A stretch of DNA of 21,553 nt, taken from IMG/VR virus record IMGVR_UViG_3300028883_000147, positions 1-21,553 of that record; one strand, given 5' to 3'. The notes under the pieces are model-generated. The model worked only from the letters and a program-made list of their open reading frames with translations, was not told where the DNA came from and made no database searches. The stretch is from a virus. The position numbers and the translations under genes are program-made. Positions 2,366 through 19,206 of the stretch are shown here, in pieces. Numbering within the stretch: position 1 is the first letter of the stretch; each line of letters opens with the position of its first letter.

Positions 2366-3283
2366 ATGAGCATGACAGACTTTGAGTGGGAAAAAGAGTG
2401 GACAGGGATGCCTGCGTTCACCGTTCCAACCCGAGATACCAAGTTAAGAAACAGTATAGACGTAAGCGACACCGTGGCTTTGGCTAAAAAAAGCACAAGC
2501 AAGCAACCTAAGTATCCTGTGTATGTGATATCCAAAGGTAGATATGACCTTCAGAAAACCGCAGAAGCCTTAACGGGCTTGGGGGTCGAATATAAAGTAG
2601 TAGTTGAGAAAGGGGAATATGGCTTGTACGCAGAGAGATCAGACCCCAAAAAACTATTAAAACTGCCTTTCGATAATCTGGGTCAAGGGTCAATTCCTGC
2701 CCGAAATTGGGTATTGGACCACGCCCGAAACTCAGGACATAAAAGGCATTGGATACTTGATGATAATTTATCTGGGTTTGGGTATCAAAAAGGGGGACGG
2801 AGAATCAACACCAAGACAAACGGAGATATGTTTAGAGAATGCGAGGATTTTGTAGATAGGTATTCGAATGTCAGACTTGCAGGAATGAGGTATCGATTTC
2901 ACCATAATTACGTCAAGTCCCCTTTTTACTTGAACACCCGCATATATTCTTGCATACTCGTTGACAACTCCTTGCGTCACAGATGGAGAGGTAAATTCAA
3001 TGAGGACACTGACCTTAGCTTGCGGGTGTTAAAAGATGGGGATTGCACTATGTTGTTCACTTGGTGCTATTGTAACAAAGCTGCGAGCCTGAGCATGAAA
3101 GGGGGCAATACTGATACCGTGTACCGCGACACAGACGAACGGAAAGAGTTTGCGGAGAGTCTAAGGTCTCAACACCCTGATGTAGTTTCCGTTGTGAGGC
3201 GATACAACAGGTGGCATCATCAAGTAGACTATAGCGGATTCAGGCAAAACGCTTTATCCCCTCTCGACGAATTTGAAAGGTAA
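2366..3283 (+). CDS. TET-associated glycosyltransferase (TAGT)-like DNA glycosyltransferase
   Basis: This is a probable glycosyltransferase acting on modified bases in phage DNA. Of 305 aa, about 49-285 match the TAGT pattern as I recall it: YPVYVISKGRY (50-60), a conserved NLGQGSIPARNWV block (104-116), RHWILDDN with an acidic DDN (132-134, probable metal/nucleotide-sugar site), FNEDTDLSLR (211-220, second acidic cluster) and a NRWHHQVDY block (281-289). TAGTs are known partners of TET/JBP dioxygenases in phages and add sugars to 5-hydroxymethylcytosine. Residues 7-18 (WEKEWTGMPAF type) resemble the start of another phage domain that I recall beside such genes; this is a weak inference. AGGAG at 2355-2359 supports the ATG at 2366. 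Base use differs from its neighbours: three sampled 60-base lines are 40-43% GC, against 57-62% in two lines of the replication gene. No TET/JBP gene is in the window. A generic GT-A enzyme is the alternative. Confidence 0.82.
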   Translation: MSMTDFEWEKEWTGMPAFTVPTRDTKLRNSIDVSDTVALAKKSTSKQPKYPVYVISKGRYDLQKTAEALTGLGVEYKVVVEKGEYGLYAERSDPKKLLKLPFDNLGQGSIPARNWVLDHARNSGHKRHWILDDNLSGFGYQKGGRRINTKTNGDMFRECEDFVDRYSNVRLAGMRYRFHHNYVKSPFYLNTRIYSCILVDNSLRHRWRGKFNEDTDLSLRVLKDGDCTMLFTWCYCNKAASLSMKGGNTDTVYRDTDERKEFAESLRSQHPDVVSVVRRYNRWHHQVDYSGFRQNALSPLDEFER

Positions 3284-3977: not shown

Positions 3978-5240
3978 TTAGAGATTGTAGGGTTCAGTGT
4001 GTTCACCGCAGACGTAAATGCCATCGCTGCCAGCGGTGATCCGTGAGACCTGTGCATCGTTTGGGTTGTCAGTGAACGTCCAAGGTCGCTCCCATTCAAC
4101 CGCACCATTTGACGCCGCGAGTTTAATGACCTGAGTGTCACTGCTCGCATCGAGTCCGTTAGTGTAGACGTTTCCGCTGCTGTCAAACTCGATGTCCATA
4201 CGCCCATTGTTGAAGTTGTTGAAGGTGTATCCAGTTAAGGTCTTTCGCCATTTCAATCCCGATGAATTGAACACTGCGACACCGTGTAACGAATCAATCG
4301 CAGGTCTTGCAACCTCGCTCCCATCGCTTGACACTCGCATGGGTCCAACTTCCCAACGGTTGTACCCAAACCCAGTTGCGTACTGGTGCTCAGAGTACCA
4401 ATGTGCAGATGTCATGTCGCTAAGGTTAAACACCTCAACGTGCTCGTAAACCTTTGGGTCTGTCAGCGGATCGTCTACGTGGTTTGCAGTAATGGCTGCG
4501 TAGTCACCATTGACATCAAAGCCATTGTCGTAGGTATCAGTGGAAAGGTTTGTGTTTGTCAGAGTTAATTCAGAATCATACGTTTCTGTATCTAGGTCGA
4601 AAATACCCACTTTGCTTGCAGCGGCTGTTGTATCGTAAAACCAAATGACAATCTTGCCGTCGACGTTTGCCTGAGTGAAAGCGTACATTCTCTTTACCGA
4701 TGGCAGGTTGATTGTCTTGACAACAGTTGCATCAGTGTCAATCACTTGCAGGTAAGATGACGACGTTGCAAATGCCTCGCCTTGGATGTAATAGTCGCCC
4801 CATACAGCGACGTTGACATTTCTTCGAGTCACGTACGGCGTGCCAACAGCAACGCGAGTCGCCGTGTAGTCAGACTTAGAAACCACCAACCCGGACGAGC
4901 CTGTAAGCCAATAGTAATTTGTCCCCTCCAGTATCGCTGAATATGAACTGCCTCCAAAGTCGCCAGTAATGACTGGCTGTTCTTGAGTAGTTCCTGAGCT
5001 AACATCCAGAAACATCGCTGCGTATTTTAGACTATCGGTGTTTGACGCTAGGGACGCAAAACCTGAATGCAGAACGTGCAAGCCGTCGCTGGTTAGCATT
5101 AAATCGGAAGGCTTGAATGTGGCATTGTACTTGCAATCGTTAAACCAAATACGAGAACCATTGCTCGCATCCAGTTTCATAATCGAGTAACCTAGTGTAA
5201 CGATCCCCGGTTCTGGGCAGCAGCAACAGCGATCAACCAT
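3978..5240 (-). CDS. Predicted beta-propeller (PQQ-like repeat) virion or tail-tip protein
   Basis: This 420 aa protein is built of repeated short beta-strand units. Examples are SIMKLDASNGSRIWF near the N-terminus and VIKLAASNGAVEWER near the C-terminus, the same L-D/A-ASNG-x-x-W pattern found in PQQ/quinoprotein-type propeller blades. Other units contain SDG and SSGNVYTNG turns. This supports a beta-propeller and suggests a surface or binding role; no enzyme motif is visible. I chose ATG at 5240 because AAAGGAG lies seven bases upstream; a GTG at 5246 would be too close to that site. The N-terminus has four successive cysteines (CCCCPEP, residues 5-11), which is odd. It sits among the genes after the tape measure, so an adsorption or tail-tip job is inferred from position only. 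Confidence 0.6.
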   Translation of the reverse strand: MVDRCCCCPEPGIVTLGYSIMKLDASNGSRIWFNDCKYNATFKPSDLMLTSDGLHVLHSGFASLASNTDSLKYAAMFLDVSSGTTQEQPVITGDFGGSSYSAILEGTNYYWLTGSSGLVVSKSDYTATRVAVGTPYVTRRNVNVAVWGDYYIQGEAFATSSSYLQVIDTDATVVKTINLPSVKRMYAFTQANVDGKIVIWFYDTTAAASKVGIFDLDTETYDSELTLTNTNLSTDTYDNGFDVNGDYAAITANHVDDPLTDPKVYEHVEVFNLSDMTSAHWYSEHQYATGFGYNRWEVGPMRVSSDGSEVARPAIDSLHGVAVFNSSGLKWRKTLTGYTFNNFNNGRMDIEFDSSGNVYTNGLDASSDTQVIKLAASNGAVEWERPWTFTDNPNDAQVSRITAGSDGIYVCGEHTEPYNL

Positions 5241-6332: not shown

Positions 6333-7253
6333 TCAGGGTTTGGAGAAGAAGGGAAGTTCCGACCAGTCGGCTTCTTTATATAGATTGAATTCAAGCAACG
6401 TAGGGTCTGCGTCATCGGCAAGTGCTCCCCCTGCGGCATCAAGTTTCTTCGGGGTAGTGACTCTGACCTCATCTCTACCCTCTAGTCCGTCTTGCAACAC
6501 CCCATTAGCATCTTTCTCGAAGAAGTGGATTAAATCTGTTCCATCAAGGTATCTGAACCCCTCGTTAACTACGACGGTCTTCCACTTGTATTCTTCGTCG
6601 TGAGTGACGTGAACACTGACCATTGCCTCGTAGAACTGGAATCCGTTGTCCTCTGTTAGCTCAGTAATGGACATCGACTTTAGCAAGCCATACCCTGCGT
6701 CGATTACCAAGACGGTACTTCCGTTTGATATGATAACGGGTTTGGAATTCGTAGAGTTGACGTAGTTAGTCAGCCATGAAACTTGGTAGTTCGCGATGTT
6801 GACCTTCAGGTTCACGATTACGTCAGTGAAGTCCGTAGGAAGGGGTTCAATGGGGTCTCCCGCTTTGTTGACGAGAGGAGTTTCATCTCGGTCTTTCCAG
6901 ACGTACTTCTGCGTTTCCTGCGAGGACACGCTGATTCGCATCCTGCGGTCGATTGGATTCGGGTACTGCTGCCTCTCCCTCTCTTGAGTATTCACCGGCT
7001 CAGTTGACCAGACTACCCTGGCGGTCCAGTGCAGAGGGGATGCCGCTGTTAGGTCAATATCTCGGCGTGTATAGAACAGGCTGTCGGGATGGGGAGAGAT
7101 GAAGGAACCGACAACATCCTCGACAGCCTGCCTGACTTCAAAGTAACCATCATCTCTGCTATTCGTTCGGATCAGGTAGGTCTGTGTGATCCGGCTATGT
7201 TGACCGAGCGAACCACCTCTCTCCTGAAGCCTCTCCACTGAAGTTACACTCAC
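6333..7253 (-). CDS. Putative distal tail / tail-tip protein
   Basis: This 306 aa protein lies directly downstream of the tape measure, where siphoviruses encode distal tail or tip proteins. It starts with GTG in a GTGA overlap with the tape-measure stop, so translation is coupled. The sequence alternates charged and beta segments: an N-terminal QTYLIRT region, a central DFTDVIVNLKVNIANYQVSWLTNYVNS block, YEAMVSVHVTHDEEYKWKT, then VVNEGFRYLDG before a C-terminal tail ending DWSELPFFSKP. No catalytic motif is seen. I cannot match it to a named family such as Dit (lambda gpM-like); the role is inferred from gene order and the assignment to the tail is more certain than the specific part. Confidence 0.6.
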   Translation of the reverse strand: MSVTSVERLQERGGSLGQHSRITQTYLIRTNSRDDGYFEVRQAVEDVVGSFISPHPDSLFYTRRDIDLTAASPLHWTARVVWSTEPVNTQERERQQYPNPIDRRMRISVSSQETQKYVWKDRDETPLVNKAGDPIEPLPTDFTDVIVNLKVNIANYQVSWLTNYVNSTNSKPVIISNGSTVLVIDAGYGLLKSMSITELTEDNGFQFYEAMVSVHVTHDEEYKWKTVVVNEGFRYLDGTDLIHFFEKDANGVLQDGLEGRDEVRVTTPKKLDAAGGALADDADPTLLEFNLYKEADWSELPFFSKP

Positions 7254-8836
7254 GATAAAACTCCTCCGACTGTGACTTCGAGGCTAGTGCCTGACTCCAT
7301 TCTGTCTGCGATCCGGCTGAGAAGATCATTAGCCATTTTGGTATTTTCCGCAGACTTCTTGGTGTTGGATGCGGTTTCCTTCATCTCTTTCGCTTCCTTC
7401 TCTCTTTTGGCGTCTCGGGCTTTGGTGAACCTGTCGATGTCAGTTTCCCTGCTCCCTTCTGCCGCTCTTTTGGCATCTCGGGCTTTGGTGAACCTGTCGA
7501 TGTCAGTTTCGCCCCTCTCCCTGAACTTCCCTGAGAACCCTGACTTTTCTTTGTACTTCCCTCCGAAAGGGACCAGGGGTTCGTTGAGCAACTCTTCAGG
7601 AGTCTTCAACTCTCCCATCTCGGGGGCAATGGCTTTCTGGAAGGCTTTAGCGAACTCCTTTGATCCGTCGACAGACGATCTCAACTCCTGGTTGATTTGC
7701 CTTTGGAATTTCAGTGTCTCTTCCGCTGCGGTCTTCTGAGCCTCTTTGGCGATAGCGATCCTTCTTTCTGCCTCAAGCTGTTGATTGGTGAGGTCTTGTT
7801 GCATCCCCTCTGGTCGTAAATCCTCACGGATCGTTCTCAGGGTCGCGAGTTGCTTCTCGATGACCGCGAGTTTATCCTCTTCCGCTTTTATTTGGTCCTC
7901 GATCTGGGTCTTGTTTTTCTCGGCTAAGGATAAACGGAAAGTTTCCATTTCTCCGGTCCGTTTGATCATAGCGGCGTTAGCCTCTGTGATCTTCTTGTCC
8001 TTCTCCCTTCTCGCTTGAGTCTCTTCGTCGTGCTTTGCCATATCCTCAGCCCACTTCAGCATCTCTTGCTGCTTTTCGAGCTTAGCCTCTGTTTCAGCAC
8101 GCTCTTTTTTTATTGCCTCAATCCTTTTCTTTTCAAGTTCCACTTCTGCGCTGAGTCTCTGAGAATGCTTTTCCTCTACCGCTTTTCTTCCTCTTCCTTT
8201 GCTTACTGCCCCTGTCTCCAAGGTCGCTTCGGCTACGGCGGCTCTCGCTTTAGCTTCTTCCATTAGCTCGGCTTTTACTTTCCTCCTTAGCTCTAAGTTC
8301 TTCTCTAAATACTTGAGCACTGACTTTTCAGAGTCGATCTGTTCTTTCAAGCCATCTATCGCAGCCTTCCTCTGCTCGATAGTCCCATCCAGTATCCTTC
8401 GGTTAAAGTTGTGGATGGTCTCCTGCTGTCGCATACCCTCTTTGAGACCTTTGACATAATCGTCGAGCAGTTTCTTAGCCTTCTCGGCAGCTTTATCCGC
8501 TGACTCACCAAACAGGTCCAATGCCAGGGCAAGTTGTAGGGTTGCCGCTGCTGCGACACCGAAAGCAGTCATCCAAGGACCGCCGACAGCCATCAACATC
8601 ATCGTCATGTTGTTAGAGGCGGCTCTCACTGCTCCTGCGAGACCTCCAGTACCTACCGTGGATGCAACGTCCTCAACACCGAAGATCGCGTTCTGAGTGA
8701 ACTGTCTCCAGTCTCTCCGCGATCTTCGGACGGTCTTGGCTTGTGCCTCCAGTTTTTTATTGACGATCTCAATCGACCTGATGAGGTCGCCATGATCCCC
8801 CATGAACCGAGTCGAGATATCAACTTTAGTAGCCAT
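7250..8836 (-). CDS. Tail tape measure protein
   Basis: This 528 aa protein is placed just after the G/GT chaperone pair, as tape measure proteins are in siphoviruses. It has a short N-terminal region, a hydrophobic stretch at about 78-108 (rich in M, A, L and V, including GGPWMTAFGVAAAATLQL) that could cross a membrane during DNA ejection, and then a long, highly charged Lys/Glu heptad-like coiled coil from about 110 to 380 (runs such as AEKAKKLLDDYVKGLKEG). Near the C-terminus the 15-residue unit ETDIDRFTKARDAKR occurs twice. Its length is at the short end for tape measures; with the usual rule of about 0.15 nm per residue it predicts a tail of roughly 80 nm. ATG at 8836 follows the frameshift-extension stop by two bases. 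Confidence 0.82.
   Translation of the reverse strand: MATKVDISTRFMGDHGDLIRSIEIVNKKLEAQAKTVRRSRRDWRQFTQNAIFGVEDVASTVGTGGLAGAVRAASNNMTMMLMAVGGPWMTAFGVAAAATLQLALALDLFGESADKAAEKAKKLLDDYVKGLKEGMRQQETIHNFNRRILDGTIEQRKAAIDGLKEQIDSEKSVLKYLEKNLELRRKVKAELMEEAKARAAVAEATLETGAVSKGRGRKAVEEKHSQRLSAEVELEKKRIEAIKKERAETEAKLEKQQEMLKWAEDMAKHDEETQARREKDKKITEANAAMIKRTGEMETFRLSLAEKNKTQIEDQIKAEEDKLAVIEKQLATLRTIREDLRPEGMQQDLTNQQLEAERRIAIAKEAQKTAAEETLKFQRQINQELRSSVDGSKEFAKAFQKAIAPEMGELKTPEELLNEPLVPFGGKYKEKSGFSGKFRERGETDIDRFTKARDAKRAAEGSRETDIDRFTKARDAKREKEAKEMKETASNTKKSAENTKMANDLLSRIADRMESGTSLEVTVGGVLS
7402..7510 (-). repeat. Tandem direct repeat inside the tape measure gene
   Basis: Two copies of a 46-base unit lie at 7402-7447 and 7465-7510, offset by 63 bases (21 codons), with one mismatch seen (GTCTCG versus ATCTCG on the + strand). 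Each encodes ETDIDRFTKARDAKR. The in-frame period means copy number can change without breaking the reading frame. Confidence 0.9.
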
Positions 8837-8838
8837 AC

Positions 8839-9368
8839 TTAGAATCTTCCGCTAAACACTGGGGGTTCCCCTGTCGCGTTCGTGACTATGTCCTCTGCCG
8901 TAGCTTGCCGAGTCTCTTCGACTCCAAGTTCCCTCATGGTGAAATCGAATATCTTCCTGTAATCCTCGTAGGTGATTTCATCTTTGAGAGAACGAAAGTC
9001 TACCCTCCCGAGTCTTAGGGCGAGGCCGATCCACCAGTCCTCAAGAGGGTCGGCATCTACTTTCCCTCGTCTTCCACTTCATCTTCGGAGAGGAACCCGT
9101 TGAACCTCTGTAACTCCAGGCGAAGTCGAGAACCGAACCCAGCTTCCATTTCGTGGACGAGTTCGAGGTCGTCTTCGGTGAAGACAGGTTCTTTAGTTTC
9201 AGGGTCCACGGTCCCCATAACGATAATCAAGGATCGGTCTTCGGAGAGAAAATACTCTTCAGCCTCAGAGACTGTCAGAGTTCGTATCCCCACTTCCTCC
9301 CCTTGAATCTTCAAGGTTTTGTACCTTCGCTGGCACTTTCCTTTTAGCCTCTCTCTTAAGTCGCTCAT
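8839..9368 (-). CDS. Tail assembly chaperone GT, product of -1 frameshift (176 aa)
   Basis: This is a fusion product made when ribosomes slip back one base at GGGAAAG (9066-9060). It contains the 103 residues of G, then 73 residues in the -1 frame, from GTA at 9060 to TAA at 8841-8839. I translated the extension by hand: it has no stop, begins VDADPLEDWWIGLALRLGR and ends EPPVFSGRF. Its stop lies two bases from the tape measure ATG, so the extension exactly fills what would otherwise be a 220-base empty gap with no good start codon. In lambda and many siphoviruses a G/GT pair made this way binds the tape measure and recruits tail tube protein; gene order here is the same. The slippage efficiency cannot be read from sequence. 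Confidence 0.82.
9057..9368 (-). CDS. Tail assembly chaperone G
   Basis: This 103 aa acidic protein is the zero-frame product of the chaperone locus. It has a conserved-looking core (TLKIQGEEVGIRTLTVSEAEEYF, about 18-40; a KIxGxExxVRxLTxxExxxF style seen in phage tail chaperones) and an acidic end SEDEVEDEGK. The ATG at 9368 has AAGGAAAAGG about four bases upstream. Its first 104 bases overlap the preceding gene in another frame, which is larger than usual for this region. It ends with TAG directly after the slippery site, as expected for a G/GT arrangement. In the cell it should coat the tape measure before the tube assembles and be absent from the finished virion. Confidence 0.8.
   Translation of the reverse strand: MSDLRERLKGKCQRRYKTLKIQGEEVGIRTLTVSEAEEYFLSEDRSLIIVMGTVDPETKEPVFTEDDLELVHEMEAGFGSRLRLELQRFNGFLSEDEVEDEGK
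9060..9066 (-). promoter_or_regulatory. Slippery heptamer for -1 ribosomal frameshifting
   Basis: GGGAAAG is read in the zero frame as G-GGA-AAG, exactly the X-XXY-YYZ phasing needed for slippage, and the zero-frame stop TAG follows immediately. After slipping, codons become GGG-AAA (still Gly-Lys), then GTA. Five bases downstream a 5-bp stem GCCGA/TCGGC (9054-9050 with 9029-9025) could form, and ACCCTC (9050-9045) could instead pair with GAGGGT (9007-9002). The alternative pairings overlap, so I cannot say which structure forms. Confidence 0.8.
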
Positions 9369-9771
9369 TCGCCTTTTCCTTCAGGGTTTTGACCAGTTTC
9401 AAATGCTTCTTCATTACGTCAGGAGGGTCATTTCTCTTGAACGCGATTCCGTGTTTAGTGAGTCGTTTCTCCATGCGGGAAAGTGCTTCTGGTTCCCCAG
9501 TGTCACTGTCATACAGAGCGTTTCCCGTTGTGTGAGCACAACAAGCTTGGTCGTAGTTCGCCTGCAAGAACTCTTTGGATGTCGGGTTCCAAAAAGGCTT
9601 GCAGGCGAGTTCACATTCCTCGTCAGCAGGTTCTGCCGTTCCGTTGCGAACAAGCCAATAACAATCAGGGTCTTCCACAACGTACCCTGCCTCTTCTCTG
9701 CGAAAAGTTGGGGTTCCGCTCGGGCTGATGCCTTCAAGGACTTCGACCGGGATTAAAGTTCTGGCTTTCAT
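9265..9771 (-). CDS. Hypothetical protein between tail tube and tail chaperone
   Basis: I do not recognise this 168 aa protein. It has a compact first part with several cysteines (PDCYWLVRNG, CELACK, QACCAHTTGN) and a segment SRMEKRLTKHGIAFKRNDPP, followed by a Lys-rich helical C-terminus (about 118-150) that ends in Ser/Gly/Asp-rich low complexity. AGAGGAAG five bases upstream supports the ATG at 9771. The low-complexity tail is the part that overlaps the G gene by 104 bases. In other siphoviruses a small gene can sit here between tube and chaperone genes, often of unknown function. A structural or assembly role is inferred only from its position. Confidence 0.65.
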   Translation of the reverse strand: MKARTLIPVEVLEGISPSGTPTFRREEAGYVVEDPDCYWLVRNGTAEPADEECELACKPFWNPTSKEFLQANYDQACCAHTTGNALYDSDTGEPEALSRMEKRLTKHGIAFKRNDPPDVMKKHLKLVKTLKEKANERLKREAKRKVPAKVQNLEDSRGGSGDTNSDSL

Positions 9772-9788: not shown

Positions 9789-10205
9789 TTACGAAGTTGG
9801 GTATGTCACAAGACCTTCAGTCTTAACTGTGAATCCTGCCTTCAACCCGTCGCTCATACTGACAGTGGTGTCTCCCATACCGATAGCTGCCGCAGTAAAG
9901 GTGAGTTCGGCTGAATCCGAAAGAATGACCTTACCTGCGACTGTAGTGCCTGGTGCTTGAGAGTTTGACGCAATGAACTGATGCGTTGCGTTTGAAGTAT
10001 CAAGAAACAGGTTCCCGGTAATGTCACCTTGAGCGGTGTACCCGGTTGCCTGTTTCCCAACGGCGACTCCACCGTCAAGCGTTCGGGTCTCGAACACTTC
10101 AGGGTCTTGTGCTCCGACCGTAAAGTCGATGACTTGGGCGACTGTTGTTAAGACAGCAGAGATGGTGAGTTGAAGGTTAGTTCCCTTCCCGATTAGTTTT
10201 GCCAC
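9789..10205 (-). CDS. Major tail tube protein
   Basis: I chose GTG at 10205, giving 138 aa: AGGAG stands about seven bases upstream, and this start avoids the overlap with the tail terminator that the longer frame (to 10280) would force. The protein begins MAKLIGKGTNLQLTIS and continues with beta-type segments (VAQVIDFTVG, ELTFTAAAIGMGDTTVSM, LKAGFTVKTEG), the usual composition of siphovirus tube subunits of the gpV/TP901-1 MTP group: small, Gly/Thr/Ala-rich, without enzyme motifs. Gene order agrees, lying between terminator and chaperone/tape measure. The assignment rests on order and composition; I could not match a named family by motif. Confidence 0.7.
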   Translation of the reverse strand: MAKLIGKGTNLQLTISAVLTTVAQVIDFTVGAQDPEVFETRTLDGGVAVGKQATGYTAQGDITGNLFLDTSNATHQFIASNSQAPGTTVAGKVILSDSAELTFTAAAIGMGDTTVSMSDGLKAGFTVKTEGLVTYPTS

Positions 10206-10215
10206 AGTTTTGCTC

Positions 10216-10638
10216 CTATTGGGGGACGTGCATGACAGTAATAGTGGAATCAATAACGGCGTTGCCTGCATCGCCGCCAAACTCGTCTACTTCGAACGAG
10301 TCGTTAATGTTTTCGATGATGATAGCTCCGATCTTTCGAACGGACCCGAGGCTAACTCCCTGCAAGGTTTGCAGGTCGTCGATGACTGCGTCACAGATGG
10401 TCTCAGCGTCGAAACTGGTCTTACCTCGAACTTGGACGTTGAAGGTCTCTGTTATCAACGTGTCATCGTCTGCGGACAACGTCGAGTTTTGGTCCGACCC
10501 TAACCGAGTAAGGACCACTGTTTTGTAGTCCTCAATCCCTTGGGGAATTCGGTCTACATAAACTTTGTACGCCGCAGCGGTGATGTCTGCTAACGCCGCT
10601 ATCCTGTCTCTCATTTCTTTCTTGACGGTCGCAGCCAT
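10216..10638 (-). CDS. Tail terminator / tail completion protein (DUF3168-like)
   Basis: This 140 aa protein has the pattern of siphovirus tail completion proteins: an N-terminal helix (VKKEMRDRIAALADITA), then a strand with VYVDRIPQG, a conserved-looking YKTVVLTRLGSDQN segment, and FNVQVRGKTSFDAETICDAVIDDLQTLQG, in which a strand is followed by an alpha helix. This is the shape of DUF3168/lambda gpU-like proteins that cap the tube and join it to the head. ATG at 10638 is preceded by a purine-rich run (GGGGGGAAATAAGAC). It lies between the gp10-like and tube genes, the usual place. The family assignment is by recalled pattern, not by search. Confidence 0.72.
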   Translation of the reverse strand: MAATVKKEMRDRIAALADITAAAYKVYVDRIPQGIEDYKTVVLTRLGSDQNSTLSADDDTLITETFNVQVRGKTSFDAETICDAVIDDLQTLQGVSLGSVRKIGAIIIENINDSFEVDEFGGDAGNAVIDSTITVMHVPQ

Positions 10639-18515: not shown

Positions 18516-18874
18516 AATCCTGCGGGTCTACTAGAAACCTTATTCGTCTTCTTGACTGCGTCCTTAACTTGAGACCATCCGAGTTGCTTCCCGAACTTCT
18601 CCAGTCTCTTAATCGCTGCTGACTTTCGCGAGACTGAAGGGTGAGCATAATGTCCACCTTTCTCCGATACGCAGGTCGAGCTTCCGTGGGCTTTCAGTTC
18701 GTCGATAGCCTCTCTGAAGTCTTCCCACGCTTCGCAATAAAGTCTCAGAACATCAATGTTAGCCTCTGACAGTTCCCCCATTTCAACTAAGCGACTTCCG
18801 ACCTCGGACCACTTAGCCAACCCATAGTTTGTCAAGTAATCTGGTGGCGGGGGTAAGCTTTCATATACATTCAT
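18512..18874 (-). CDS. terS: Terminase small subunit (P27 family)
   Basis: I chose ATG at 18874, giving 120 aa starting MNVYESLPPPPDYLTNYG, because it overlaps the HNH stop by ATGA; a start at 18928 would read 55 bases into the HNH gene. The pattern PPPDYL...AKWSEVGSRLVEMGELSEANIDVLRLYCEAW, followed by the helix DFREAIDELKAHG and a Ser/Lys-rich block HPSVSRKSAAIKRLEKFGKQLG, fits P27-type small terminases. It should bind the packaging site (cos or pac) and load TerL. The site itself is not identifiable here. Confidence 0.85.
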   Translation of the reverse strand: MNVYESLPPPPDYLTNYGLAKWSEVGSRLVEMGELSEANIDVLRLYCEAWEDFREAIDELKAHGSSTCVSEKGGHYAHPSVSRKSAAIKRLEKFGKQLGWSQVKDAVKKTNKVSSRPAGL

Positions 18875-19206
18875 CTTCCGTATCCTCCCATGTCTTGAAC
18901 AGTCTTCTTGCTGTGATGTGGTTTGCACATAGTCTGTAAGTTGTCCTCATCGAAGAAAACCTCTGGTCTACCTCGGTGAGGGGTTATGTGATCCACAATC
19001 GCCACTTTAGGTATACATTCTAAAGTCGGCTTTCCTTCCTTTCTGCACTCGACGCAAAACGGATGTTTAGCCAAGTGTTTTAATCTCAGCCCATGTTTGC
19101 CCTTCCACTGTGCGGTATTGTAGAGAGGGTGTCCAGGTTTACTGGTCCCTCTCTTGCGGTGCAGGCTTCTCGCCTTCGATCCGTGTGTCCTCGCTGCTTT
19201 AGGCAT
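18871..19206 (-). CDS. HNH endonuclease (terminase-associated)
   Basis: This 111 aa protein has an HNH/zinc-type nuclease signature: CVEC (C51, C54), VDHITPH (D72, H73 and H77), an asparagine in DEDNLQTMC (N89), and CKPHH (C94, H97, H98). The N-terminus is basic (RSLHRKRG). HNH genes directly before terS are known in HK97-like phages, where gp74 is needed with the terminase for cos cleavage. It begins eight bases inside the end of the tail-fibre gene (ATGCCTAA) and ends in ATGA with terS. A homing endonuclease is less likely because the gene is coupled on both sides to packaging genes. Confidence 0.9.
   Translation of the reverse strand: MPKAARTHGSKARSLHRKRGTSKPGHPLYNTAQWKGKHGLRLKHLAKHPFCVECRKEGKPTLECIPKVAIVDHITPHRGRPEVFFDEDNLQTMCKPHHSKKTVQDMGGYGR

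Follow-up and report, generated by a model that had tools for sequence, protein, structure and literature searches.

The heptamer GGGAAAG at positions 9066-9060 of the minus strand is almost certainly the site of a programmed -1 ribosomal frameshift of the lambda G/GT kind. Lambda-type phages make G and GT by such a frameshift. The frameshift is ordinary, lambda-like and common to many tailed phages, with nothing new in kind; less ordinary are the conserved hairpin after the slip site and the stop codon that abuts the heptamer. The window is the whole stretch of DNA that was analysed (21,553 bases; IMG/VR record IMGVR_UViG_3300028883_000147), a metagenomic contig of an uncultivated virus. The occurrence and rate of the shift, as well as the roles given below to G, T and the hairpin, are proposed by analogy with better-known systems.

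The features are listed below. The basis of each assignment is given in brackets.

9057..9368, minus strand: G, tail assembly chaperone, zero-frame product of 103 aa (reading frame; phrog_344; HK97 fold).
9060..9066, minus strand: slippery heptamer G-GGA-AAG in X-XXY-YYZ phase, directly followed by TAG (sequence; 29/30 loci; same letters as lambda).
8839..9060, minus strand: T extension, -1 frame, 73 codons plus TAA at 8841-8839 (open frame; identity with L002 and L003; pN/pS; phrog_337 in relatives).
9001..9051, minus strand: predicted RNA hairpin, 5' arm 9051-9042 and 3' arm 9010-9001 (alignment and covariation in relatives).
9265..9771, minus strand: orf168, conserved gene between the tail tube gene and G; context, outside the frameshift product (ORF; homologues in 30 loci).
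9789..10205, minus strand: likely major tail tube protein; its length is 138 aa when the start is set by alignment with L002; expected partner of T (position).
7250..8836, minus strand: likely tape measure protein, 528 aa; expected partner of G (position; helical-looking by eye).

Heptamer and its conservation in relatives

The G ORF starts at ATG 9368 and has 103 codons, the last of which read ...GAG GGA AAG TAG (TAG at 9059-9057). The -1 frame, read from GTA at 9060 onward, is open for 73 sense codons up to the TAA at 8841-8839; the ATG of the tape measure gene, at 8836, lies two bases past this TAA. The predicted length of GT is 103 + 73 = 176 aa. The exact X-XXY-YYZ phase of the heptamer, the zero-frame TAG directly after it and the stop-free -1 frame that ends two bases before the tape measure ATG were all part of the original prediction and are borne out by sequence and translation; all coordinates and lengths given there are correct, including the 176 aa. 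A stop codon in the -1 frame, named there as counter-evidence, was looked for by translation and is absent. As had been anticipated, ORF callers would miss GT and about 220 coding bases, left empty by an annotation based on ORFs alone.

According to the proposed mechanism, most ribosomes would translate GGA AAG and terminate at the UAG next to it, so that the 103-aa G is made. In a minority of them, the tRNA-Gly and tRNA-Lys placed on G-GGA-AAG would slip back by one base to GGG AAA; the slipped ribosomes would then continue for 73 codons and produce the 176-aa GT.

The frequency of such sites by chance was assessed on 25 ORFs (7038 codons), picked as likely genes out of the 67 listed. In-phase heptamers that fit X3(A/T)3Z occur 15 times in these genes. 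A -1 extension of at least 60 codons is found at just two of them: the G site and the portal/protease junction.

The heptamer of the portal/protease junction (AAAAAAG, 15142-15136, minus strand; portal gene, 291-codon -1 frame leading into the protease) was rejected as a frameshift site. It lies near the portal stop, overlaps a ribosome-binding-like AAGG that precedes the protease's own ATG, and is absent from the four relatives read (L041, L042, L043 and L045). As it is not conserved in these relatives, it is considered either a chance occurrence or a part of the protease ribosome-binding site.

Relatives were retrieved from IMG/VR with orf168, the gene upstream of G, a search that is blind to the slip site. 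The 30 loci scanned are 29 from this search and one (L006) from a search with the tail tube protein; L007 was omitted because it shares a contig with L002, and the site of L002 was read separately. In each locus, the scan looked up to 90 bases from the end of a G-like ORF for an in-phase heptamer with a -1 extension. Such a heptamer (GGGAAAC, AAAAAAC or AAAAAAA) was found in 29 of the 30 loci, each with a -1 frame that stays open for 73-112 codons; the exception is L019, where the contig stops short of G. Neither heptamer nor extension entered into the selection of these loci, and the lack of conservation that had been named as grounds for abandoning the prediction was not observed. A rescan with orf168 of L008 gave only contigs already among the relatives, and genome contigs scanned with the orf168 alignment contained no relative. 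The query protein P0001 had no relative in viral contigs and gave nothing among phages.

Removal of identical sequences left 21 distinct sites, including those of the window and L002. The heptamer is AAAAAAC in 15, GGGAAAC in 3, AAAAAAA in 2 and GGGAAAG in the window alone; GGGAAAC is the heptamer of L005, L011 and L030. The zero-frame stop abuts the heptamer in 12 of the 21 sites and is located further on in the other 9. Mean distances from slip site to stop of 26 nt (PRFect training phages) and 36 nt (Xu set) are given in a passage of PMC10885494. In L031 and L032, the slip site is AAAAAAA, at 4310; transcriptional slippage could act there too.

Zero-frame product and -1 extension

The identification of G as a tail assembly chaperone is well supported, by profile and by fold. 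G matches phrog_344 (tail assembly chaperone; E=1e-8), a family matched by all 13 aligned G members. The Pfam search with the window's G gave nothing; Phage_TAC_13 (Pfam) is touched by 4 of the 13 members, the window not among them (E up to 0.1, best 1e-4). No useful match was obtained with G in NCBIfam, nor anything among phages with the G of L013, and the comparison of the sequence profile of G with the HK97 chaperone was not significant (E 0.4). The structure model of G, built from 13 aligned sequences, is confident, with a pLDDT of 89.8. Among PDB entries, Foldseek ranks 2ob9, the tail assembly chaperone of HK97, first for this model (E 2.1e-3). The VIA-align superposition with 2ob9 has a Z of 9.7 and an rmsd of 3.5 over 93 residues; the predicted fold of G resembles that of the HK97 protein with only 20% identity. 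The BFVD search with this model gave tail chaperones, the top predicted viral protein being the chaperone of Arthrobacter phage Salgado.

In Salgado (L048, NC_055033; about 2133), the chaperone gp66 is annotated alone. An in-phase GGGAAAA is found 24 nt before its stop, and the -1 frame there is open for 60 codons; Salgado may thus encode a GT that lacks annotation.

Judged by comparison of the window with L002, the T frame (-1) is under purifying selection and changes as a coding sequence does. The identity of T is 71% in L002 and in L003. The window and L002 differ in this frame with a pN of 0.177 and a pS of 0.739, and the changes at codon positions 1/2/3 number 17/12/36; the remaining two frames have stops in both the window and L002 and lack such a codon-position pattern. 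In the family search of the extension, put forward as a check, the window's T matches no family in PHROGs and Pfam and no protein of phage and plasmid records; the T of relatives matches phrog_337 (tail protein) in 4 of 13 cases and phrog_39 (tail assembly protein) in 1 of 13. The structure model of T is poor (pLDDT 67.5), and no PDB chain matched it.

Translation of T as a separate gene, from its own start coupled to the stop of G and without any frameshift, is very improbable. Re-initiation at stop/ATG junctions is common, and ATG 9056 comes right after the TAG of G; this ATG is, however, in the zero frame and meets a TAA after 13 codons, and a start of T there was rejected as being in the wrong frame. 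Counted in extension codons, the T frame has its earliest ATG, GTG or TTG at 42 (window), 29 (L005) and 25 (L008 and L010), either within the conserved part or past it; the independent start codon considered in the original prediction is found nowhere in the first 41 extension codons of the window. The retention of a phase-correct heptamer in nearly all loci also argues against separate initiation. Many more distant relatives have a GTG, TTG or ATG at T codons 7-11, and some Microbacterium phage subclusters appear, from a passage of PMC7302621, to express both ORFs separately; in distant relatives with such starts, separate initiation of T could be a second route. From the positions of the start codons, the whole T domain of the window and its near relatives appears to be obtainable solely through a shift.

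The reading of the two frames as one broken or mis-assembled gene (sequencing error or pseudogene), suggested by the metagenomic origin of the record, deserves almost no credence, being refuted because the frame break is at the identical place in 20 other distinct site sequences; the purifying selection on the extension also speaks against it.

Predicted hairpin downstream of the heptamer

A hairpin downstream of the slip site is well supported by sequence comparison for the lineage; for the window, the support comes through inheritance only, 9 of the 10 pairs being kept (the outermost pair is G.A). The alignment includes the window, L002, L003, L008 and L010 and has a 10-bp stem that pairs columns 28-37 with columns 69-78. 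In the window, the stem begins 8 nt 3' of the heptamer. Standard pairs occupy 97.5% of 40 cells, a measure on which the stem is favoured by having been derived by eye from L008. Changes on both sides are found in 4 of the 10 stem pairs. The paired percentage and the covariation score were reached by 0/500 shuffles; two other counts, of doubly changed pairs and of further pair types, were no higher than in shuffles. Sliding the stem arms in the alignment destroys the pairing. In a second clade (8 sequences, 7 distinct), 95.5% of cells are paired and 3 pairs are changed on both sides.

The contribution of the protein code was controlled by permuting synonymous codons within T (500 permutations, 16 sites). 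Stability exceeds that expected from the protein code at 13 of the 16 sites, at most 18/500 permutations folding as well; the sites that fail this control are those of the window (106/500), L017 (426/500) and L025 (240/500). The stability is specific to this position. In a scan of 14 sites, z is -2.2 or lower at the heptamer in 11 sites; at offsets of 33 to 132 nt, such values number 2 of 56. Among codons whose amino acid is unchanged between the window and L002, 4/17 differ in T codons 1-21 and 22/35 beyond (Fisher p 0.017). The window's own fold is weak (z only -0.8) and is not exceptional in a dinucleotide shuffle of its 90 nt (z -0.37). No Rfam family matches the window.

Fusion of the two frames through transcriptional instead of ribosomal slippage has next to no probability. 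RNA polymerase can slip on runs of six or seven A, and such a run is present in most relatives; the window, L005, L011 and L030 have, however, runs of only three (GGGAAAG or GGGAAAC), the X-XXY-YYZ phase is kept in all, and the downstream hairpin fits ribosome pausing.

For the ribosomal frameshift, stimulation by the predicted hairpin is likely from the sequence comparisons: located 8 nt past the heptamer, it would probably pause the ribosome and help to set the G:GT ratio. The G/GT shift of this lineage probably depends on a composite signal, unlike that of lambda: a stop-abutted heptamer and, about 5-8 nt further on, a long stem-loop that compensatory changes maintain in addition to the encoded protein sequence. 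The local fold of lambda is weak (z -1.61, 40/500), whereas the hairpin covaries in the relatives of the window. The hairpin of Rhodococcus phage Jflix2 is not exceptional (z -0.60, 147/500). Like the site described here, the Escherichia coli dnaX signal combines a slippery heptamer and a simple downstream stem-loop, according to passages of PMC5009743 and PMC3711429; dnaX is another gene, with a heptamer other than that of the G/GT site. In open-licence papers on structures downstream of phage G/GT sites, no such conserved hairpin was found described; this is no claim of its being unpublished.

Gene context, known systems and meaning

The position and order of G/GT fit the arrangement tail tube, small gene, G/GT, tape measure. 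The tail tube ORF has 91% identity with the ORF of L002. Its longer reading (9789-10280) has no PHROG or Pfam match, and the tape measure ORF has no significant profile match in PHROGs and Pfam; both assignments therefore rest on position. In the window as in L002, the small gene, orf168, encodes 168 aa and shares 104 nt with G in a different frame. It has no match in profile libraries. Its motif AEPADEEC is invariant in 12 aligned members. T is read in the frame of orf168.

In Jflix2 (genes 18 and 19), the order is as here: major tail protein, small gene, chaperone, joined chaperone, tape measure. Its GT is annotated as one joined chaperone CDS, and its G is related to that of L035. Unlike the window, Jflix2 has the heptamer GGGTTTC, with 36 bases from the end of the heptamer to the end of the stop. 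Its small gene (gene 17) is dissimilar to orf168 by eye.

The site resembles lambda G/GT (NC_001416) in having a short G, a -1 extended GT and a location just before the tape measure gene. The heptamer is that of lambda letter for letter: the original prediction had refrained from claiming this identity, and the caution proved unnecessary, the lambda slip site being G_GGA_AAG in the lambda record and in a passage of PMC7618472. The differences are the stop, directly after the heptamer here and separated from it by 15 nt in lambda, and the extension, 73 codons here and 144 in lambda. In the section of PMC5009743 that deals with this system, the G-T shift of lambda occurs at a low level, gpG and gpGT bind the tape measure protein, T binds the tail tube subunit, and G/GT are widely conserved among long-tailed phages. 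Frameshifting of 6% and 7% was measured in two such chaperone genes, according to a passage of PMC3711429. By analogy with lambda, G would coat the tape measure protein, and tail tube subunits would be recruited by GT through its T part.

Other ORFs of the window are listed here for context. A TET-associated glycosyltransferase domain (PF20691, E=6e-36) is encoded at 2366-3283 (plus strand), beside an unassigned small ORF (1806-2327) that is nucleotide kinase-like by eye; the two together hint at modified DNA bases. An HNH endonuclease-like ORF (18871-19206, minus strand) directly precedes the gene of the terminase small subunit.

If the composite signal proposed above is real, the control of the G:GT ratio in this lineage would rest on a dedicated RNA structure. 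The hairpin, if functional, would provide a natural family of sites in which an RNA structure sets this ratio and changes in sequence without losing its pairing. The tuning of the G:GT ratio across tailed phages would thereby become testable with ordinary reporters.
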